Positions 8,701 to 16,262 of a DNA stretch of 28,488 nucleotides are shown in pieces (positions within the stretch are counted from its first letter, which is position 1; each line of letters begins with the position of its first letter). Where the stretch lies: the IMG/VR virus record IMGVR_UViG_3300025840_000184, positions 1-28,488 of that record; one strand, 5' to 3'. Made by a program: the position numbers and the translations under genes. The DNA comes from a virus. Below the pieces are notes generated by a model. That model had not been told where the DNA came from. It did no database searches and worked only from the letters and a program-made list of their open reading frames with translations.

Positions 8701-8949
8701 TGAATTGACATCCCAGCTTGATTCTACTAATCCATCAACAACGGCATCTTTAGTAACTGATACAACTGGAATATGACCGCTTGGCATTGCTGAAGATAAC
8801 GTAATTGCTGCGGTCTCATTATTTGCAAATGTTTTTGTCAATGTACCTTTAGTTTCTACTTTATCTGTATTGAGATTAGTAAAGTTTGCGTCCATCTCTG
8901 GGTGTGTAAGAGCTGAACCTTTACCTGAACGTGTAGTAATCGTAGACAT
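5722..8949 (-). CDS. Tail-fibre-like protein with beta-propeller-type repeats
   Basis: This is a 1075-residue structural protein. The N-terminus TRSGKGSALTHPEMDANFTN is a widespread phage fibre/appendage start. Residues about 150-830 carry several copies of a blade-like pattern. Each has a hydrophobic strand with D/N-x-G, an aromatic-rich strand, then a Leu-Ser/Thr-Thr-Pro-Tyr/Trp-Asp phrase: YDLSTPYDPSTA, FSLSTPYVI, ELTTDWDIGSA, TLTTPWDLST, VKTPWDLSTA. This is the repeat seen in beta-propeller-like proteins of phages and bacteria. The C-terminus (DANHITMGSTLDLAI, then NWVLANTTTVEV) is a common distal module. The ATG overlaps the stop of the preceding 115-aa gene (TAATG). A receptor- or glycan-contacting role is inferred; no catalytic motif is visible. 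Confidence 0.82.
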   Translation of the reverse strand: MSTITTRSGKGSALTHPEMDANFTNLNTDKVETKGTLTKTFANNETAAITLSSAMPSGHIPVVSVTKDAVVDGLVESSWDVNSTGSNYEISDGTTYNVTLTSANAGHTPYNLEWDGNTANTAGELATILSDLSPGIAGSSPGYASYLKIMKFIDNGNKIFIANTALTGFAYYDLSTPYDPSTAVLANTTSIDWTSDITYTGYNYLYQKWDIEFDDDGDRMWLMGNTRTYSGSSYSYYPFVHEFSLSTPYVIEPGNVTHVGNTVSGASGLYGTTLDYILYRGWYKPTGLYVQGNYYMHQLFDNVNSTSAVGVSKTSNGYNLIRDVYYTDPNNGLAPHHTAVTTSLGELWAGPMSDDLQRVVGKKWNNRQIAFFEYTGRGGNRYHANEVLGDWDMLIDHSSSGPQGQWLEKEPFRKWYDDNGGTFNTLTLFDNNYDSMLDADADGNLYLFFPKIGRVYKFTCAHISKARFKRSSGSWSANDVGKVISGNGGKAVLTAIDGSYTIIDPFDNTDPITSWTLENFSVKSEAEGLELASSSSSYDLGRMHLNPDNYNSTSYGPVPDERLGMTYDAIDFYPVSGTNANNMVNYQDTTFENGVFSIENAIRAVCWGDNGNIAVFYGGYNNQFYTVDLNRPYDFLYNTPVVSSTKIYNPSSSTDSYDIEFSANGHMFFYTLGSTLVSVELTTDWDIGSANTSTKYTTTNLCTTAGASSIMHFNIKPDGTKLWAMDYYTTNSSKYVWEYTLTTPWDLSTRTLAAAHTNTAKIFEGIRGNGSATGEEYTDHYYTRGIFEWNSDGTAIFINRYNRESSQSHRSYLAKVGVKTPWDLSTAYVTGHMVNGTHGDHGAQGWQYQPRSFMGGDGTMMIHATADSSPVYYYLCAQKTGGASYLTGYNTAITGSTAQIDTTNWNDINGVTVTEAKNNGDIYYSFSTDNRTTWKIIHNTDGERSIARNNGGTWQYNSNITYATNTWTNAAINSEKGAIQEASALSVNRMDKTQFEAVSDANHITMGSTLDLAITYNLTSSGLTSPTSDGVSLNYAGSSGDQGAVIGTDYNWVLANTTTVEVTALAPANLKVRIV

Positions 8950-9296
8950 TAACTTAATCTCGTGACTGTGGGTTTGATGAATACTTTACCATTGAGTATT
9001 TCCTCGACGTTTGTGTTACCTGCTTCATACATCATGACGTCGTAGACATATCTGACGTGTTCATCTAAATTAGTTGTTTGATCTTTTGTGAGTGAAATTG
9101 TCATAACACCATTCGGCGCATCATTGACAGCAGTTGTAAAATCAATGCTCGCCGTAGACGTGTAGGATTTTTTCATCGAAGCGCTAAATAATTTAGTCGA
9201 AACATCAAGAGATGCGCCCGCAGAGTCTTTCAAATAGATTTTGAAACTAGCATCTGTGCCTTGAGCGACAGTCAGATCTTCTACTCTCGAAGCCAT
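8949..9296 (-). CDS. Small Ig-like virion structural protein
   Basis: The 115-residue all-beta protein has the pattern RVEDLTVAQGTDASFKIYL, then VSTKLFSASMKK, GVMTISLTKDQT, VRYVYDVMMY, and ILNGKVFIKPTVTR at the end. This is the single Ig/BppU-like sandwich found beside fibre and baseplate genes in many contractile-tailed phages, where such proteins act as adaptors between baseplate and receptor-binding proteins. It directly precedes the 1075-aa fibre gene and shares a TAATG junction with it, so the two are probably translated together and may interact. The start is supported by AAGAGAA upstream. The exact role is inferred from context. Confidence 0.78.
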   Translation of the reverse strand: MASRVEDLTVAQGTDASFKIYLKDSAGASLDVSTKLFSASMKKSYTSTASIDFTTAVNDAPNGVMTISLTKDQTTNLDEHVRYVYDVMMYEAGNTNVEEILNGKVFIKPTVTRLS

Positions 9297-9321: not shown

Positions 9322-9984
9322 TTATTTATTATTTTCTGAAGCCAACCGTGGAGAGAAATTCATACCAACTGCGATTCTGTCTTCTTTTTCGGACAACGAT
9401 GTATATACTTCATGACCATACCATGACGGAAAAATAAGCGCGCTACCTTCTACAGGAGGAATAGTCATATGAGAAATCCATTGAGGATCTCGATCATCTC
9501 CTCCTTTATGTAATCTTTTTTCAGCATAATGATCTGCAAAAAAAGATAGAGTCGATTCAATCAGATGATGTCCCTCTCTCATGAAATTTATCATTCCTGG
9601 GTCGCCAGTTTTTGGCACTTTTACATAATAAACACCAGAAAAAAGACAACCAGGATGTGTATGAAATGAATTTTTGGCGCCCAATATATTAGTGTTTATC
9701 CATGAATTAGACATTTTTATATCTAAATTCATATCCATCACTGAGTTTGCAATATGATTAACTCCCTCGACTATCCTATCCATGATGTGATCATATTCTT
9801 CACACATGCCAGTTTTCATCGCAAACTGCCATCCACCTATATTGGATCTCGAATCACCTTTGTGTGATTTAGAAGCCAACTCATAAAAATCTACAATCGC
9901 TTGATTATTGGGATTTGGAATTTTTATTTCAAAAATACTATCTGACCAAAGATATTGCCTTGAGATATGCAATTGTCCGCTCAT
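9322..9984 (-). CDS. Putative 2-oxoglutarate/Fe(II)-dependent oxygenase (2OG-FeII_Oxy_5 type)
   Basis: The 220-residue protein is of the double-stranded beta-helix type. SWINTNI leads to SFHTHPGCLFSGVYYVKVP (His108 and His110), then G-MINF, a distal ALIFPSWYGHEVY with His191, and RIAVGMNFSP with Arg203. That arrangement is typical of the TIGR02466/2OG-FeII_Oxy_5 family found in marine phages and bacteria. His191 is the likely distal iron ligand and Arg203 the likely 2OG carboxylate contact; the proximal ligand pair is a His-rich HTH. The substrate is unknown. The ATG overlaps the stop of the JmjC-like gene by four bases (ATGA) and AAGG lies upstream, so it is co-translated with that gene. Protein, lipid or small-molecule hydroxylation are all possible. 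Confidence 0.82.
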   Translation of the reverse strand: MSGQLHISRQYLWSDSIFEIKIPNPNNQAIVDFYELASKSHKGDSRSNIGGWQFAMKTGMCEEYDHIMDRIVEGVNHIANSVMDMNLDIKMSNSWINTNILGAKNSFHTHPGCLFSGVYYVKVPKTGDPGMINFMREGHHLIESTLSFFADHYAEKRLHKGGDDRDPQWISHMTIPPVEGSALIFPSWYGHEVYTSLSEKEDRIAVGMNFSPRLASENNK

Positions 9985-10778
9985 AACATACCTTCGAACG
10001 GACTACGAAATATCAACGGATAACTAATAGACAGACGATTTGTGAGTGGCTTAAAATAATGGAATTGTCTCGTTGGAATATAGACCATATCGCCTGGTTT
10101 CATAGTAACTTGTAGTTGAATATTAAAACTATCAAATAGTTCTTTTCTCTGTTCATCTGACCAATCAGCATCTAACAAATGATCGAGTAGTTGGCATGCT
10201 TTATTTTCGTAAATTGTGACTTCAGATTCGCCATCAATCTGAAAAATAAAGTTAGATGGTATGTCGCAATGCGGACTAAAAGAATTACTATCCTTTAAAC
10301 CAGCATAGAGATGAGCATGCCCTGAATATTCACTAATCTGTGCTGGCCAAATTCCAAAATTAACATAATCAACATAAAAAGTATCTAATAACTGATGAAT
10401 TAATTTTTTTGCGTTTTCATTAAAATCTTCCCAATTAGTTACTATGAATGTATGATTGTTTTCTAATAATTCTTGTGCAGATGTACACGGCGAAGAATTA
10501 AAGTTGTCTACTTCTTTTCGAACTTCTTCAGTAACTAAATTTTGTTTTTCAATTTGAGTATCATTTTTGATGTTTACTACATTTACTAGTTCACCAATAT
10601 TTTCTGTCTTATTCAAATATAAATGATTACCTAAATGTGGCAAACTAAATGTGTCAATTAAACTATCCCAGTCAGCATATTTTTCGGGCTCTTCAAGCAT
10701 ATTTTCAACATATACGCCTCTATCATTGAACCAAATATCTTCTCTTAAATCATTTAGTTTCTTTTGATCTATCATCAT
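9981..10778 (-). CDS. Putative JmjC/cupin-type Fe(II) oxygenase
   Basis: In this 265-residue protein the C-terminal half has the cupin/JmjC signature. SFSPHCDIPSNFIFQIDG contains the H-x-D pair (His170, Asp172), then GESEVTIYE. After an acidic helical insert comes VTMKPGDMVYIPTRQFHYF with distal His240, followed by NRLSISYPL. Such proteins (cupin-8 and ribosomal-oxygenase-like families) are usually 2-oxoglutarate-dependent hydroxylases of proteins. The N-terminal half (DLREDIWFNDRGVYVENML) is helical and unassigned. The gene overlaps its upstream neighbour by 29 bases and its downstream oxygenase by 4, so all three are tightly coupled. The start is one of two tandem ATGs (10778 or 10775). Substrate unknown. 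Confidence 0.75.
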   Translation of the reverse strand: MMIDQKKLNDLREDIWFNDRGVYVENMLEEPEKYADWDSLIDTFSLPHLGNHLYLNKTENIGELVNVVNIKNDTQIEKQNLVTEEVRKEVDNFNSSPCTSAQELLENNHTFIVTNWEDFNENAKKLIHQLLDTFYVDYVNFGIWPAQISEYSGHAHLYAGLKDSNSFSPHCDIPSNFIFQIDGESEVTIYENKACQLLDHLLDADWSDEQRKELFDSFNIQLQVTMKPGDMVYIPTRQFHYFKPLTNRLSISYPLIFRSPFEGML

Positions 10779-11496
10779 TTAATTCCACTGTGTATTTTGA
10801 TCTTTTCATGACATACTTACGATAAAATTGATTAGCTGAAGCAATGATTCCAGGCTTTTGTCTTTTTTCTGGAGTCATTATGATTCTATAGTCAGCTTTA
10901 TGTATAGGTATCACGTGTAATAATGGTGTACCAGCTTTAATTGTATATGTACCTTCTCTTCTTGGAGACATGATCCAATTCAAAGCTCCGAATCGAGGAT
11001 TATAATCTACTATTCCTGGATAAATGATAAAATCATCGACAATATCTGAATGATAATGAGGAGGCAATAATAAAAAAGACACATCTCCTTCGGGCATGAC
11101 TACCCAAGGAGAAGTAAAATGAAGTGGTTGCAATCGTTTCACAGCATTTTTATCGCCCGGAGGAATACCATCAGTGATATCTGCGTTCATACCATTCGGA
11201 CTGCTATCATGCACCGGACAAGGTAATTGTCCATTCGAAGGACGCATTTTAGTACCACCGCCAGCATATGCCATCGTCGCTTTATCTGAGCAATATACTT
11301 TAAATTCATCCCAAGCGGGTATAATCCATCCGGTATTTTTATAATCGAAAATACCTGGACAATCGACAAAAGTTTCTTTGCCGTGTTTTTCTATTTGTTT
11401 CTTTTTATGAGCGCCTTCAACCGCTGCTGCTCTTTGAATTGGATGAATTTCATACAGAGAATTACTTACATCTAAAAATTTTACATCAATCGTCAT
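10750..11496 (-). CDS. Conserved-looking protein of unknown function in the oxygenase cluster
   Basis: I do not recognise this 248-residue protein with certainty. It has no signal peptide or membrane segment. Visible motifs are FVDCPGIFDYKNTGWIIPAW near residue 45, an FTSPWVVMP stretch, LLPPHYHSDIVDDF, PGIVDYNPRFGALNWI and IKAGTPLLHVIPIHK near residue 195. The alternating strands, a His pair in PHYHSD and GTPL-x-x-VIP resemble a single beta-barrel or cupin-like fold, and loosely the DUF6065-type proteins; this is a guess. It overlaps the JmjC-like gene by 29 bases and follows the o-spanin gene by 3 bases. Membership of a three-gene block with two oxygenases suggests a role in the same modification or substrate handling. 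Confidence 0.7.
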   Translation of the reverse strand: MTIDVKFLDVSNSLYEIHPIQRAAAVEGAHKKKQIEKHGKETFVDCPGIFDYKNTGWIIPAWDEFKVYCSDKATMAYAGGGTKMRPSNGQLPCPVHDSSPNGMNADITDGIPPGDKNAVKRLQPLHFTSPWVVMPEGDVSFLLLPPHYHSDIVDDFIIYPGIVDYNPRFGALNWIMSPRREGTYTIKAGTPLLHVIPIHKADYRIIMTPEKRQKPGIIASANQFYRKYVMKRSKYTVELNDDRSKETK

Positions 11497-11499
11497 AAT

Positions 11500-11952
11500 T
11501 TACCATTTAATTAAATCAAGTATCGAATCAGTTCCTTCTTGCACGATTTCTTCTGTATCTTCTGGAGTTTCTTTAATCATTGTCTCGATCGACTCTTCAT
11601 AATATACAATAAGAGCTTTCTGCTGGTTTATATATCTGCGCAATTCTGCGATATTGAGACTCATGTTCTCATAGTCTGGAACACTTAACGCAAAGAATAC
11701 ACCAACTCCTGCTTCTTCTTCATACCTTTGTAAAAATTCTTCCATGTTTTCAGGAGTCACAGCATAAAACTTGACTCGATGAAGATTCAAAGGTTTTGGT
11801 CTTGGTTGTATTGGAATGTCTTTGACGATGTAATCCGTCTTGACAATGACTTGTGGTTCTACGCTAGCACAACCACTACTCAGTATCAGTGGAAATAATA
11901 GGCTCAGCGCCAGAATCGATTTCAAGTTCTGAAAAAATCTTAGCTGTGGCAT
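11500..11952 (-). CDS. Putative o-spanin (Rz1-like outer-membrane lipoprotein)
   Basis: The 150-residue protein has a basic N-terminus, a hydrophobic stretch (SILALSLLFPLIL) and a lipobox-like LSSGC with Cys28 as the predicted lipidated residue, so it should be exported and anchored to the outer membrane. The mature part begins ASVEPQV, has a Pro-rich segment (IPIQPRPKP) typical of o-spanins, then helical, Glu-rich sequence. Its first 77 bases overlap the 3' end of the i-spanin gene in another frame, the classical Rz/Rz1 overlapping layout. Paired spanins fuse inner and outer membranes in the last step of lysis of Gram-negative hosts. The -3 residue of the lipobox is Ser, slightly atypical. 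It is longer than lambda Rz1. Confidence 0.75.
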   Translation of the reverse strand: MPQLRFFQNLKSILALSLLFPLILSSGCASVEPQVIVKTDYIVKDIPIQPRPKPLNLHRVKFYAVTPENMEEFLQRYEEEAGVGVFFALSVPDYENMSLNIAELRRYINQQKALIVYYEESIETMIKETPEDTEEIVQEGTDSILDLIKW

Positions 11953-12268
11953 TGTTCACTCTCTTCTCAATCAGTCCAGGTTTTTGCATAGTCAGCATCG
12001 TGAGATCATGACGACGAAGCTTCGCAGCTAATTCATCTTGATATACTTCTGCTTCTTGCGCTCTCTTTGCGAGTTTCTCCATATTTTCTTGAGCAATCGC
12101 ATAATCTTCTTGCAAGTTGTTAATCGTCTCTTGATTTGTTTCGGCGACTAACGCTAACTTAGCATTGTTATCTCGTAGTACGGCCATTCGTTCTTGAGTA
12201 TCAGTGTAATAATACCAAGCACCGCCACCCATCGAACCAAGCAATAATAATAAAATCAAATACGGCAT
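11876..12268 (-). CDS. Putative i-spanin (Rz-like inner-membrane protein)
   Basis: In this 130-residue protein an N-terminal membrane anchor occupies about residues 3-21 (YLILLLLLGSMGGGAWYYY). A long charged coiled-coil-like region follows, to about residue 95 (RDNNAKLALVAETNQETINN and on), then a short C-terminal tail. This type II membrane topology with a periplasmic coiled coil is the hallmark of i-spanins. Its C-terminal coding sequence overlaps the lipoprotein gene by 77 bases in another frame. The Shine-Dalgarno (AAGGAAAG) lies in the last codons of the holin-like gene, three bases upstream of this start. Sequence identity to known spanins is not claimed; the call rests on topology plus gene arrangement. 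Confidence 0.78.
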   Translation of the reverse strand: MPYLILLLLLGSMGGGAWYYYTDTQERMAVLRDNNAKLALVAETNQETINNLQEDYAIAQENMEKLAKRAQEAEVYQDELAAKLRRHDLTMLTMQKPGLIEKRVNNATAKIFSELEIDSGAEPIISTDTE

Positions 12269-12271
12269 AAT

Positions 12272-12610
12272 TTACTTTCCTTTCTGATAAGCTTGCGCTC
12301 CAAAAAATGCTGCCACTAAACCAGCGACAGCGACAAAATATGTTGGTGCCATGTCTCCTAAAATATTAGAAGCTTTTTCTAGCCCAACAACATCAGTAAT
12401 AACAACCATGGCGGGATAGAGCAACATACCAGCAAGAGAGAACCATGCCATATTTCGTTGGGCATCTCGCATTGCATCTTGATCTTCAAGTTCTTTTCTC
12501 TTGAATTCCATATACATTGCATGTTCTTCTCTACTTACCTTTCCATCGCCATTTGTATCTGCTGGATGATAGCTTGTTGGCTCTTTTCTAATTTTTTCTT
12601 CTTCAGCCAT
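12272..12610 (-). CDS. Holin-like membrane protein with an N-terminal EF-hand
   Basis: In this 112-residue protein a soluble N-terminus (HPADTNGDGKVSREEH) carries a canonical EF-hand loop at residues 18-29, with acidic or polar ligands Asp18, Asn20, Asp22, Lys24 (backbone), Ser26 and Glu29. A charged helix (KRKELEDQDAMRDAQRN) leads to two predicted membrane segments at about 54-74 and 86-106, and the protein ends in a basic tail (QKGK). Size, two membrane helices and position directly before a spanin pair indicate a holin or holin-like lysis timer. The ATG has a strong AGGAGA site 5-6 bases upstream. Similar EF-hand-plus-two-helix proteins are known to me from marine phages, generally annotated as holin or hypothetical. 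Confidence 0.72.
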   Translation of the reverse strand: MAEEEKIRKEPTSYHPADTNGDGKVSREEHAMYMEFKRKELEDQDAMRDAQRNMAWFSLAGMLLYPAMVVITDVVGLEKASNILGDMAPTYFVAVAGLVAAFFGAQAYQKGK

Positions 12611-12618
12611 ATTATCTC

Positions 12619-12879
12619 CTACTTTGTTTTTACAATATCAAATCCCACAGGATCGACTGTTTTGATCTCCACAAGATGACCGTTGAGAGTGATTAATTTA
12701 AAGTGAGTGTTAGTCACCTTTTTGAGTTTTCTACAAACATACGTTTTAGGATTAAATCCTTGTTGTTTGCTGCCATCGGGTTTTTCAATGATTTCATTGG
12801 GAAAATATATCGTGACTTCGAATTCATCAATGAATAACGCGACAACCCAATTATGAAATTTTTCGTATAATTTTTTCAT
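12619..12879 (-). CDS. Small hypothetical protein
   Basis: The 86-residue basic protein has no membrane segment or recognisable catalytic motif. After a helical start (KKLYEKFHNWVVALF), a beta-rich part includes FEVTIYFPNEI, a KPDGSKQQGFNPKTYVCRK block, HFKLITLNGHLVEIK and PVGFDIVKTK. The length and the PDG/PKTYVCRK/VGFDI pattern resemble short uncharacterised proteins of marine T4-like phages. Its start ATG overlaps the oxygenase stop (ATGA) and the Shine-Dalgarno is weak, so translation probably depends on coupling. It lies between the P4H-like oxygenase and the holin, which does not identify a function. Confidence 0.72.
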   Translation of the reverse strand: MKKLYEKFHNWVVALFIDEFEVTIYFPNEIIEKPDGSKQQGFNPKTYVCRKLKKVTNTHFKLITLNGHLVEIKTVDPVGFDIVKTK

Positions 12880-13487
12880 AGCTTATTGATTCCGTGCGCC
12901 CAAAAAACAAGAGTTCGACGTGTTCCTCGAGTAACTGGATTTACACGATGTGTAAACCAACTATCAAAAAATACAACGTCTCCTTTTTCCATTTCTACTT
13001 TATCGAAAGTATTTGCGCCAATATTTATTTCGAGTTCACCGCCTTCATATTCATCTGGATCTGATAACATGACAATTCCAGAAATTTTCCTGTCGTATTT
13101 TCTATATCCTAACGGAGTACAATCGCGATGTTCTTTATACTCATTTCCCTCTTCATAAATTAAATAATTTATTGCTTCGATAAATTCTATGTCGTATAAG
13201 AATAAATCATAATTTGCTTTCCCTGTCATATGTGCTATTTTCTGCCAAAGCCATTCGGTATTTTGATCAATTGTCATGTACCCAACTTTATTATTACGAT
13301 AGTCATGAACTTCGGGATCATTATTTTCAGGATCATACGTCTGACCGATAGTCATAGCCGGCTGGAAATCTAATATTTTTTCGAAAAATTTAATTCTTTC
13401 AAGTTCTTCATCTTCGAAAACAGATTTCATAACGCCGAAATGCGGGAGCAAATGAGGAGGAACGAGTTTTTCATGGATTTGATACAT
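12876..13487 (-). CDS. Putative prolyl-4-hydroxylase-like 2OG-Fe(II) oxygenase
   Basis: This 203-residue protein has the full signature of the 2OG-FeII_Oxy_3/P4H family. INYLIYEEGNEYKEHRDC carries the H-x-D iron ligands (His120, Asp122), and KISGIVMLSDPDEYEGGELEI is the classic Leu-Ser-Asp and EGGEL strand. GDVVFFDSWFTHRVNPV has the distal ligand His180, and GTRRTLVFW has the Arg190/191 that would hold 2-oxoglutarate. The catalytic set is intact, so an active Fe(II)/2OG hydroxylase is likely. The gene starts 25 bases after the stop of the Tyr/Pro-repeat fibre gene. AGGTGA lies 6 bases before the ATG, and a perfect late-promoter octamer is 46 bases upstream. Substrate unknown; the repeat protein just upstream is a tempting candidate. 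Confidence 0.9.
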   Translation of the reverse strand: MYQIHEKLVPPHLLPHFGVMKSVFEDEELERIKFFEKILDFQPAMTIGQTYDPENNDPEVHDYRNNKVGYMTIDQNTEWLWQKIAHMTGKANYDLFLYDIEFIEAINYLIYEEGNEYKEHRDCTPLGYRKYDRKISGIVMLSDPDEYEGGELEINIGANTFDKVEMEKGDVVFFDSWFTHRVNPVTRGTRRTLVFWAHGINKL

Positions 13488-13511
13488 TATAAATCACCTG
13501 TCAATAATTAA

Positions 13512-15203
13512 TCAAACATCAGCATCATATTTCATATTTATAAAGCCTTTCTGGGCTGCATTTGTATTATTTGTGCCTGATCCAACATAGGCTTGTAGAG
13601 AGTTTTGATACACGCCGCCTACTTCTGTTGCATATACAGTCGCATAAACAGTTGATGGTAAAGCTGGCTGTGTATATGTGCCGGCAGCTGGAGCAGAAGT
13701 GCCAGGTGCTCTAAATTGATAATACGTATTTTCTGCATTTTGAACGTATACAATCGTATCTTCGCCAGATATGCCAGTATAATATCTCGCTGGATAATCA
13801 GTCTGCACATAATATGAGGGCTGTGTATAGTCTCGTGCCGGATAATATGTTGTTCTAGACGGATAATCAGTCTGTACCTGATACGCAGGTTGAAAAGATG
13901 TCCTTGAAGGATAATCCGTTACTGTTTCATAAGCAGCTTGATAAGATACACGCGTGGGATAATCAGTATAAGTTGTGTATGCAGGTTGCACTGAATATCG
14001 TTGAGGAAAATCAGAGTATACAGTTACATCGGGCTGTGTAGTTGTCCTACCAGGAAAATCGGAATATATAGTTACATCAGGTTGTGTAGTTGTCCTACCA
14101 GGATATGCTGTGTACACAGTTACATTTGGTTGTGTAGTCGTTCTACCCGGATGATCAGCATAAATTGTATAAGCTGGTTGAACGTTTTGCAAAATATAAT
14201 ACGATGCTTGCCAGTATGATCTAGCAGGATAATTTGTATATACTATATAACCAGGTTGCTTTGTATATCGTGCTGGATAAGAATCAGCCCAATAATACCA
14301 CGCGTGAATTTGATACCATGATGCACTGACGCTATATGCTGGTTGAGCTGAATAACGTTCAGGGTAAACAGAAGGAATTTCGTCGCCAAACGCCTGCACA
14401 TAGGTATAAGGTCCACTAATATAAGCGGGTTGATATGAATATCTTGCAGGATAACTTGCAGCGGGTTGATATATCCATCTACCAGGATGTTGAAAATACG
14501 TAGAGTATGCTGGTTGTACTGAATATCTTCTCGGATAAGTGACATAATTATTTGGACCGTCAAATTCAGGTATCTGCGGTGCCGCTAGCGGCCCGTTATA
14601 ACCCGCTTGATAATAGCCTCTCGATGGATAAGGTCCCAGATAATATCCTCTCGCAACTCCATAATAAGATGATTCATAAGCTGGTGAATAATAAGACGTT
14701 CCTACAAAAGTATCTGATACATAATATCCTGGAGAAAAATATGATGTTCCTTCATAAAAGCTTGAAGTTTCATATGCTGGCTGATAATATGATGTCCCTT
14801 CGTAAAAGCTTGAAGTTTCATATGCAGGTTGAAGAGTATATCTCGCGGGTCGCGCTTGCGAAGTTTCATATGCTGGCTGTGTTGTATATCGTTCAGGATA
14901 ATCAGCATATACTGAATACGCTGGTTGTGTCGTAGTTCTAGACGGATATGTCGTAACAACATTATATGCAGGTTGTACTATTTGATATGCGGCTTGTTGA
15001 TAAACCCTTGAAGGATAAAGTGTTGTGACTTGATAGGCAGGTTGTACTACGTTTGGCTGACCTCTGCCTCCTCGACCTTCAATTTCTAAAATATGTTTAC
15101 CGTAGGGCAAATCAATAGGAGTATTACGAGTCGCGACGTCGCGCGATTCGGTAAACGTCTCAGCCCAAGTCCTGCTAAAAAACCCTTTGCCACCAGCTGG
15201 CAT
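13512..15203 (-). CDS. Tyr/Pro-rich repeat structural protein (fibre or adhesin-like)
   Basis: In this 563-residue protein the N-terminus (FSRTWAETFTESRDVATRNT, then LPYGKHILEIEGRGGRG) and C-terminus (YVGSGTNNTNAAQKGFINMKY) look like the two ends of a beta domain of the glycine-rich fibre-tip type. Between them about 20-25 repeats of roughly 16 residues run from residue 50 to about 475. The unit is A-Y-x-x-x-x-D-Y-P-x-R-x-x-x-Q-P, with variants such as FYEGTSYYQP. The composition is extreme, dominated by Tyr, Pro, Thr, Ser, Arg and Gln, with almost no Lys or Cys in the array. The ATG has AGGAG upstream. The gene follows two fibre genes and is followed 25 bases later by a P4H-like oxygenase. 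A virion surface role is inferred. Confidence 0.8.
   Translation of the reverse strand: MPAGGKGFFSRTWAETFTESRDVATRNTPIDLPYGKHILEIEGRGGRGQPNVVQPAYQVTTLYPSRVYQQAAYQIVQPAYNVVTTYPSRTTTQPAYSVYADYPERYTTQPAYETSQARPARYTLQPAYETSSFYEGTSYYQPAYETSSFYEGTSYFSPGYYVSDTFVGTSYYSPAYESSYYGVARGYYLGPYPSRGYYQAGYNGPLAAPQIPEFDGPNNYVTYPRRYSVQPAYSTYFQHPGRWIYQPAASYPARYSYQPAYISGPYTYVQAFGDEIPSVYPERYSAQPAYSVSASWYQIHAWYYWADSYPARYTKQPGYIVYTNYPARSYWQASYYILQNVQPAYTIYADHPGRTTTQPNVTVYTAYPGRTTTQPDVTIYSDFPGRTTTQPDVTVYSDFPQRYSVQPAYTTYTDYPTRVSYQAAYETVTDYPSRTSFQPAYQVQTDYPSRTTYYPARDYTQPSYYVQTDYPARYYTGISGEDTIVYVQNAENTYYQFRAPGTSAPAAGTYTQPALPSTVYATVYATEVGGVYQNSLQAYVGSGTNNTNAAQKGFINMKYDADV
13533..13540 (-). promoter_or_regulatory. Putative late promoter inside the 3' end of the Tyr/Pro-repeat gene
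   Basis: The minus strand carries a perfect TATAAATA within the last codons of the 563-aa gene (encoding FINMKY), about 46 bases before the ATG of the P4H-like oxygenase. RNA from here would cover the oxygenase, the 86-aa gene and the lysis genes. An 8-base match is expected about twice by chance on one strand of this AT-rich window, so position relative to the next gene is the main support. Confidence 0.5.
13785..15038 (-). repeat. In-frame tandem repeats, unit 48 bp (16 aa), Tyr/Pro-rich
   Basis: The array encodes 16-residue units ending in Q-P and containing Y-P-x-R. Some neighbours are nearly identical in DNA at exactly 48-base offset. TGTGTAGTTGTCCTACCAGG occurs at 14035 and again at 14083. 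AAGCTTGAAGTTTCATATGC recurs about 14758 and 14806. Elsewhere units diverge or are cut to 7-12 residues, so recent local duplications are superimposed on an older array. The pattern is protein-coding throughout on the minus strand. Confidence 0.9.
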
Positions 15204-15215
15204 ATTTAACTCCTA

Positions 15216-16262
15216 TTACTGCGCCCAACCAGCTTTTCTTAATGCAAGTCCACCGTAAATTGTACCATTAACACAATAGAATGTGTAGATATCTATCCCA
15301 CTGGATGATGGAGGCTCTACGCCTTCTGCCCAATATATAGCATCCGATTCACCGCTTCCTGGCCATTCAATTTCCCATGTACCACCGCTATTTGTTACTA
15401 TAAGTGTTAGAGTAATAGCTCCTGATGTAGGAATATTTTGTAAATCTACACTAAAATTACCAGTCGCAGTAATTGTATGAACAGAGCCGAGAAGAGGATT
15501 GATTGTATATGCATTGCCGGCGATTGTGCCTGCGTACACTGTTTCTCTAAAATAATCTTCTACATTTAAGATTTTTGTACTTACAGTAGTAGAATTAGCA
15601 GATAAGACTGTTGAACCACCGCATGTTAGCTGGAACTGATCTACGGCATTAAAATCTAAATATGTATCTGTATCACCGCTGTGTACTATTTTGCCAACAT
15701 GATATGTATTAGCACTAAATGTAGCACCAGTTGCAGAAGCAGTGATGTCCATGACTGAACCAAAATCGATCTTCTTGCCATCAGATATTGCTACGTTAGC
15801 TGCAAAGACTACATCACCGTCTGATTGCAATTGCAATGCTTGAGTTGCTGAACTGCCAGCTCTAATATCTAGATGTCCTGATGTTTCTACGAAAGCTCCG
15901 TATGTAGTGCCATTATCTCTTAAAGTAATTTGTCCGGTCGAAGTATTCGCGATCAATGGTCCAGTACTATTTAAATTTAATTCAGTCGCGCTTTGAACAC
16001 TATTTCCAGATAAAGTTAAATCGTCGACATTAATTGATGTAATAGAAACGTAGTTAAAATTGTTTGCGGTCAGCGTATTGATGAATGCATTACCAGGAAT
16101 ATCCAAATTATACTGCGGATTTGTCTTTCCAATACCTACACGATTAGTAGAAGCATCGACGAACAATGTACCTGAATCGACATTTAAATTGGCTCCAACC
16201 GACATGTCTCCTGTGACGACTAAACCATCGAGAGTATCAAATTGTTGTGATGTAGATGCCAT
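15216..16262 (-). CDS. Tail-fibre-like structural protein
   Basis: The 348-residue protein has repeated beta phrases typical of phage fibres. DGLVVTGDMSVGANLNV is followed by the widespread LFVDASTNRVGIGKTNPQY motif, then LDIPGNAFINTLTANN. Short strands such as DLTLSGNSVQSATELNLN and GHLDIRAGSSATQALQLQSD suggest a trimeric beta-shaft. The C-terminal 100 residues (TITATGNFSVDLQNIPTSGA, then WEIEWPGSG and FYCVNGTIYGG) form a separate beta domain resembling distal modules of other phage appendages. The ATG at 16262 has AGAAGAG upstream. It is one of a run of fibre-type genes, and which host surface structure it contacts cannot be read from the sequence. Confidence 0.82.
   Translation of the reverse strand: MASTSQQFDTLDGLVVTGDMSVGANLNVDSGTLFVDASTNRVGIGKTNPQYNLDIPGNAFINTLTANNFNYVSITSINVDDLTLSGNSVQSATELNLNSTGPLIANTSTGQITLRDNGTTYGAFVETSGHLDIRAGSSATQALQLQSDGDVVFAANVAISDGKKIDFGSVMDITASATGATFSANTYHVGKIVHSGDTDTYLDFNAVDQFQLTCGGSTVLSANSTTVSTKILNVEDYFRETVYAGTIAGNAYTINPLLGSVHTITATGNFSVDLQNIPTSGAITLTLIVTNSGGTWEIEWPGSGESDAIYWAEGVEPPSSSGIDIYTFYCVNGTIYGGLALRKAGWAQ

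Follow-up and report, generated by a model that had tools for sequence, protein, structure and literature searches.

We analysed the virus contig IMGVR_UViG_3300025840_000184 from IMG/VR, the whole of which (28,488 b, linear, probably a fragment) is called the window here. At its left end lie genes of head-closure, head-tail adaptor and baseplate-wedge/tail-fibre-connector families and at its right end genes for large tail or fibre proteins, an arrangement in keeping with a T4-like virion gene cluster. The subject of this work is a gene pair on the - strand: a gene for a 563-amino-acid (aa) Pro/Tyr repeat protein, and directly downstream of it a gene for a 203-aa Fe(II)/2-oxoglutarate (2OG) oxygenase that resembles prolyl 4-hydroxylases (P4H). 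All the open reading frames (ORFs) named in a preliminary description of this DNA were present where it had placed them, on the - strand. That description had put the start of the P4H-like gene 25 bases after a fibre gene with about 20-25 repeats; the adjacency held, with a gap of 24 b and about 20 units.

In the 563-aa protein, the N-terminal region is conserved and the C-terminus is non-repetitive; between them lie about 20 units of 16 residues (QPAYxxxxxYPxRxxx). Counting motifs, we found 20 copies of QP[ANDGS] and 20 of [YHFR]PxR; the identity at lag 16 was 0.373, as against 0.094 ± 0.014 in shuffles. Unique inserts separate the repeat blocks, and the number of units varies among relatives of the protein. 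The repeat is unlike the Gly-X-Y repeats of a collagen-like phage fibre, which were not found. One related fibre gave a weak Extensin_1 match, far below the cut-off, that we ascribe to composition.

The P4H-like protein matched 2OG-FeII_Oxy_3 at 8e-17, well above the cut-off. By sequence, it has an HxD...H iron triad (H120, D122 and H180) and a basic candidate for 2OG binding (R190), and the His and Asp residues named in the preliminary description were conserved in three relatives. Across the fibre-linked set, H120, D122 and R190 were each present in 39/39 members and H180 in 36/39. The three exceptions form a single paralogue group with Ser or Ala at the distal His (L135:7426-8001, L139:3393-3968 and L222:4095-4670). 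This paralogue lies beside a PF11397 transferase gene and a second repeat gene, of Pro/Asn type, and the same genomes hold an intact copy. The nearest solved relatives by sequence were PKHD-type PiuC enzymes (PDB, 7.5e-13), and in NCBIfam the PKHD-type family was the best match, below its cut-off. The AlphaFold2 (AF2) model (pLDDT 89, pTM 0.86) showed the double-stranded beta-helix fold of the P4H/PHD type, and its best Foldseek rows were prolyl hydroxylases with a TM of about 0.7. The top match was the Pseudomonas putida P4H (PPHD) bound to EF-Tu (4iw3, 5e-12); others were Dictyostelium PhyA (6t8m, 8e-12), PHD2 with HIF peptides, PiuC and a chlorella-virus collagen prolyl hydroxylase (5c5t, 6e-10). 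Sequence and model together predict that the P4H-like protein is a prolyl hydroxylase.

To ask how far the pairing extends, we gathered P4H relatives from viral contigs by a single-protein search and profile alignment, and clustered the P4H-like ORFs at 85% identity into 110 clusters. Considering those clusters with a visible upstream gene, we compared the ones at 160 bits or above with the weaker ones. A Pro-rich repeat gene preceded the enzyme in 35/37 of the former but in 2/65 of the latter, and of these two, one is a true case at a borderline 159.7 bits and the other a misclassified DUF6065 gene. The near relatives (L004-L007) all have the repeat gene just upstream of P4H. So do the distant relatives L009, L010, L012, L013 and L015 (39-40% identity), with a different repeat sequence. 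The N-terminus of the upstream repeat proteins was nevertheless related across distant loci (W...TFN.PG...IPYGR...V.G.GG.G). The pairing includes contigs of 183-323 kb. In the maximum-likelihood tree the paired enzymes formed one clade (support 99/91; 36/37 members paired), and the pairing label required 2 changes on this tree compared with 29 for shuffles. Therefore, the pairing has one origin and has since persisted through deep divergence. Scanning bacterial genomes with the P4H returned scattered cellular enzymes of 26-49% identity, and the fibre cassette was absent from the five bacterial loci inspected around the best relatives.

The reverse test gave the same picture. Here the contigs were chosen solely by the N-terminal or C-terminal region of the repeat protein (n = 46, including near-identical contigs, and hence not 46 independent cases). 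A P4H gene lay at most 80 b downstream of the fibre gene, or of the last of two tandem fibre genes, in 44/46. In L276, it lies two genes further downstream, and L305 has a permuted order (P4H-DUF6065-fibre) with the P4H upstream; as both still carry it nearby, P4H is found within about 3 kb in 46/46 contigs. Genes of 14 families follow the cassette downstream, so the cassette persists as a block while the genes around it change. Thus, a P4H-fold enzyme with its catalytic residues and a Pro-rich repeat protein of the fibre cluster form a conserved two-way pairing. The preliminary description had offered this pairing as an inference and proposed a search for co-occurrence of the two gene types; we find them together across dozens of diverged phages, and the two-way test and the tree strongly support the pairing.

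The other features of the locus are listed in Table 1. The 86-aa protein had no family match in Pfam and phrog-type profile scans. Adjoining the spanin pair, a 112-aa protein (window 12272-12610) with an EF-hand-like loop (DTNGDGKVSREE) and hydrophobic stretches is possibly a holin. A 115-aa protein (window 8949-9296) between the Oxy_5 gene and a gene for a 1075-aa protein without a family match resembles phrog_3304 (L-shaped tail fiber protein assembly) and, weakly, LtfC. A nucleotide search with 10 kb of the window returned no match to cultured phages, and neither the 563-aa repeat protein, the 248-aa protein nor the PF11397 transferase had a match among the cultured phages of the collection searched.

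Table 1. Genes of the repeat-protein and oxygenase region of the window
Feature	Coordinates	Strand	Evidence or remark
563-aa Pro/Tyr repeat protein, putative tail-fibre tip or adhesin	13512..15203	-	homologues in L002/L003
203-aa prolyl-4-hydroxylase-like Fe(II)/2OG oxygenase (P4H-like)	12876..13487	-	Pfam, AF2 model, Foldseek, conserved pairing
248-aa DUF6065-like protein (phrog_7084), recurring cassette member	10750..11496	-	putative dUTPase-like fold, invariant Asp164
265-aa JmjC_2/Cupin_8 oxygenase-like protein	9981..10778	-	H170, D172, H240
220-aa 2OG-FeII_Oxy_5/TIGR02466 protein	9322..9984	-	H108-T-H110, H191
348-aa protein, directly upstream of the repeat gene	15216..16262	-	weak tail-fibre matches (phrog_18345 tail fiber, 1.5e-4)
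86-aa protein, start overlapping the P4H stop (ATGA)	12619..12879	-	kept in L004-L007
Rz-like spanin pair, overlapping, between the P4H and 248-aa genes	11500..12268	-	phrog_739, phrog_812; late gene context

Downstream of P4H, most loci encode a DUF6065 protein (PF19541) and a second, DUF6065-like protein of phrog_7084. The 248-aa ORF of the window is of the second type. The preliminary description had called it an unknown; it is no orphan but a member of phrog_7084, which is shared with PF19541/DUF6065 proteins. Within 3.5 kb of P4H we found the DUF6065 gene in 32/38 clusters, the DUF6065-like second gene in 32/38 and a PF11397 transferase gene in 24/38. In the window and in the two relatives nearest to it, the first DUF6065 gene is missing beside P4H. 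For the 248-aa protein, the AF2 model (pLDDT 79) matched dUTPases in Foldseek (E 0.01, probability 0.99), and gave a VIA Z of about 10 over 116-133 residues, all top rows being dUTPases. An invariant PG..D motif (Asp164) of the family resembles dUTPase motif 3 by eye, and the other motifs were not recognised by eye. From this model, the 248-aa/DUF6065-like family appears to have a dUTPase-like fold, which is a hint of fold, not of function. We found no literature on DUF6065 in open-access papers.

The transferase assignment was checked with the profile of PF11397, a family of GlcNAc transferases (GT60/Skp1 Gnt1-like), which scored above its curated cut-off in 5/5 members tested (best 5e-33); no solved structure for the family was found by sequence. 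PF11397 was present in 7/13 records examined. There was none among the window ORFs scanned and none in L004-L007, including the 160-kb L007, these contigs being partial.

We also observed related arrangements at further loci. In L013 (1955-7049), a 1245-aa GNPGNPG-type Gly/Pro repeat protein is followed by its own DUF6065 protein and 2OG oxygenase, just before the fibre-P4H cassette, and this genome may hold two repeat-protein/oxygenase pairs. L019, L023, L043, L066, L081 and HTVC033P (L086) encode Gly-rich adhesin-like proteins directly upstream of other 2OG oxygenases, possibly a parallel pairing outside the fibre-P4H clade. In the cultured Synechococcus phage S-SCSM1 (L313, 4935-7352), a 2OG oxygenase, an annotated GDP-fucose protein O-fucosyltransferase and another 2OG oxygenase occur in this order.

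The window encodes two more oxygenase-like proteins. The 265-aa protein (JmjC/RoxA type by its JmjC_2 profile and HxD...H motif) matched JmjC_2 at 4e-12 and Cupin_8 at 5e-10; hydroxylases of this type act on Arg/His of ribosomal proteins. The 220-aa protein matched 2OG-FeII_Oxy_5 at 1e-14, and TIGR02466 above its cut-off; its motif reads HTH...H in place of the canonical HxD/E, and it is a putative enzyme. The His and Asp residues given for them in Table 1 were conserved in three relatives. The preliminary description was therefore right in seeing three distinct 2OG oxygenase-like genes with these residues, which belong to three different Pfam families and score well above the cut-offs. Among the loci collected, relatives of the JmjC protein and close relatives of the Oxy_5 protein occur only in the window's close clade, and distant homologues of both are present in cultured cyanophages. 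Because of this limit to the close clade, and because the distant homologues lie in cultured cyanophages, in whose collection the fibre found no match, we place both genes outside the conserved fibre cassette.

Next, we compared the composition of the repeats, which differ greatly in type: QPAY/YPxR (window), PGNATGTYN, GPANYNAAT, NYNPLVPGT and NYNVAYPIANQP. Pro made up 7.8-20.4% of 36 paired repeat regions. Tyr went down to 0.8%, Asn to 1.6% and Asp to 0, and Lys never exceeded 1.6%. Hence Pro is the most constant candidate target. We rejected Lys and Asp, since many repeat regions contain almost none of them or none at all. Tyr, named as a possible target in the preliminary description, is not favoured, as one P4H-paired fibre has 0.8% Tyr and Pro stays at 7.8-20.4% in all 36. 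Thr was abundant (6.9-25%), so Thr/Ser could equally be targets of the PF11397 transferase.

We consider it probable, with moderate confidence, that the P4H-like protein serves as a prolyl hydroxylase for one substrate, the Pro-rich repeat fibre protein encoded just upstream; the activity, the residue, the virion location and the benefit are what we infer. As the pairing is kept across dozens of diverged phages, uncultured T4-like phages probably modify their own host-contact protein, as animals modify collagen. The enzyme would be made late in infection and act in the host cytoplasm, where it would use Fe(II), O2 and 2-oxoglutarate to hydroxylate prolines of the repeats before virions are assembled or while this is under way. 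For the window's clade, the main effect of the hydroxyprolines would be to stiffen the extended Pro-rich scaffold that presents the variable inserts, which probably contact the receptor. In most relatives, hydroxyproline (or Thr/Ser) would then receive a sugar from the linked PF11397 transferase, as is done on Skp1 by Gnt1, which we take to be a PF11397 member. That P4H, the two DUF6065/dUTPase-fold proteins and the PF11397 transferase make up a full pathway of prolyl hydroxylation and hydroxyproline glycosylation dedicated to the receptor-contact fibre, in a widespread lineage of tailed phages, is a tentative proposal, and we hold it as possible rather than probable.

Several observations weigh against a dedicated fibre prolyl hydroxylase. 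The single origin of the pairing means that the cluster counts are not independent events. That the repeat protein would be in the virion is read from the place of its gene in the fibre cluster. No transferase gene was found among the window ORFs scanned or in the 160-kb relative L007. In the window fibre family Pro, Tyr and Arg are each conserved above average, with Tyr at 0.86, Arg at 0.91 and Pro at 0.87. The main argument for caution comes from the L218/L276 lineage, which keeps the full P4H-DUF6065-DUF6065like-transferase set with a Pro-poor fibre and two genes between P4H and fibre; the L276 fibre (L276:5335-6888) has ASYNAQN-type units with 4.2% Pro, 25% Asn and 12.5% Tyr, and an Asn or Tyr target would fit it equally well. 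Hydroxylation of Asn or Tyr instead of Pro would also agree with the abundance of both residues in most repeats and with the conservation of Tyr, as high as that of Pro, in the window repeats. Yet other paired fibres go down to 0.8% Tyr and 1.6% Asn, and the best structural matches are prolyl hydroxylases; we regard such a target as quite unlikely. A host target must also be weighed, since EF-Tu is the partner of PPHD, to which the model is structurally closest. In that case P4H would modify a host protein such as EF-Tu and favour late phage translation, the fibre adjacency being an inherited late operon; the spanins and other late genes in the same run, and the single origin of the association, agree with this. 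However, a host target leaves unexplained the two-way tie to one gene type, including the permuted order of L305 and the tandem fibres, and the tie holds while the downstream neighbours vary among 14 families. We judge it unlikely.

The enzyme could instead serve mainly as a chaperone or assembly factor of the repetitive fibre, with dispensable catalysis; this would fit the loss of the distal iron-binding His from the paralogue that L135, L139 and L222 carry beside the second repeat gene. All other clusters, however, keep the residues for iron and 2OG binding across deep divergence, which makes this role highly improbable. The preliminary description had grouped all three window oxygenases in one virion-hydroxylation module, and the three do stay together with the 248-aa gene in L004, L005 and L007. 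Against this, the JmjC relatives and close Oxy_5 relatives are confined to the window clade among the loci collected and are missing from the other cassettes, and distant homologues of the two occur in cultured cyanophages, where neither the fibre nor the 248-aa protein nor the transferase found a match. A single three-enzyme module is very improbable; fibre hydroxylation, as first proposed, has gained ground for the P4H-like enzyme and is unsupported for the JmjC and Oxy_5 proteins.

Few unexplained genes are as common in marine phages as those for 2OG oxygenases, and a strict, old and reciprocal linkage to a single structural gene gives one subfamily a testable substrate. Through this linkage, two uncharacterised families, PF19541/DUF6065 and phrog_7084, are also connected with a likely pathway. 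If dedicated fibre hydroxylation is true, phages hydroxylate and often glycosylate a virion protein post-translationally, the supply of oxygen and 2-oxoglutarate bears on virion maturation, and hydroxyproline glycosylation extends beyond eukaryotes. The full pathway, if true, would parallel, in bacterial viruses, collagen/extensin modification and the Skp1 pathway, with infectivity depending on O2 and 2-oxoglutarate.

Among known systems, the marine phage 2OG-Fe(II) oxygenases (phrog_61, phrog_81) belong to the same broad families and are common in cyanophages and pelagiphages, but they have other gene contexts in the cultured phages examined. No substrate was tied to them in the papers we found; phage oxygenases structurally like human EGLN3 have been described with no substrate given (PMC12774648). 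According to a 2012 paper, P4H for collagen is lacking in bacteria and viruses (PMC3368898). Open-access papers that treat prolyl hydroxylase or 2OG oxygenase together with phage fibres yielded no report of phage fibre hydroxylation. The chemistry is known; in the open-access papers searched we found no description of it acting on a phage fibre, with a glycosyltransferase linked to it. PBCV-1 vCPH is likewise a virus-encoded P4H fold, but of a eukaryotic virus; the enzyme studied here comes from a tailed phage and is linked with a Pro repeat protein that is not a collagen. PPHD, the best structural match, is a free-standing bacterial-type P4H, but its known partner is the host translation factor EF-Tu and it has no fibre linkage. 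The PKHD-type PiuC/YbiX enzymes are cellular, unlike the fibre-linked phage enzyme.

The gp38-type adhesins are Gly-rich and the phage collagens have Gly-X-Y repeats. Like T4-like gp38 adhesins and phage collagens, the fibre is a repeat-rich protein of the tail-fibre cluster with non-repetitive inserts; unlike them, the repeats of the window's close relative L002 have about 10% Pro, 19% Tyr and 6% Gly. By analogy, the closest pathway to the phage cassette would be Skp1 modification in Dictyostelium and Toxoplasma. In Dictyostelium, a PhyA-type P4H makes the hydroxyproline of Skp1 that then receives GlcNAc (PMC8724618). That P4H is cytoplasmic and of the same fold, and most phage relatives likewise have PF11397 in the cassette, in the order P4H, then transferase. 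The substrate there is one Pro of Skp1, whereas here the virus is prokaryotic and the candidate is a highly repetitive fibre. The phage cassette also differs in adding DUF6065/dUTPase-fold proteins, in the window's having no transferase and in a glycosylation step that is only predicted.

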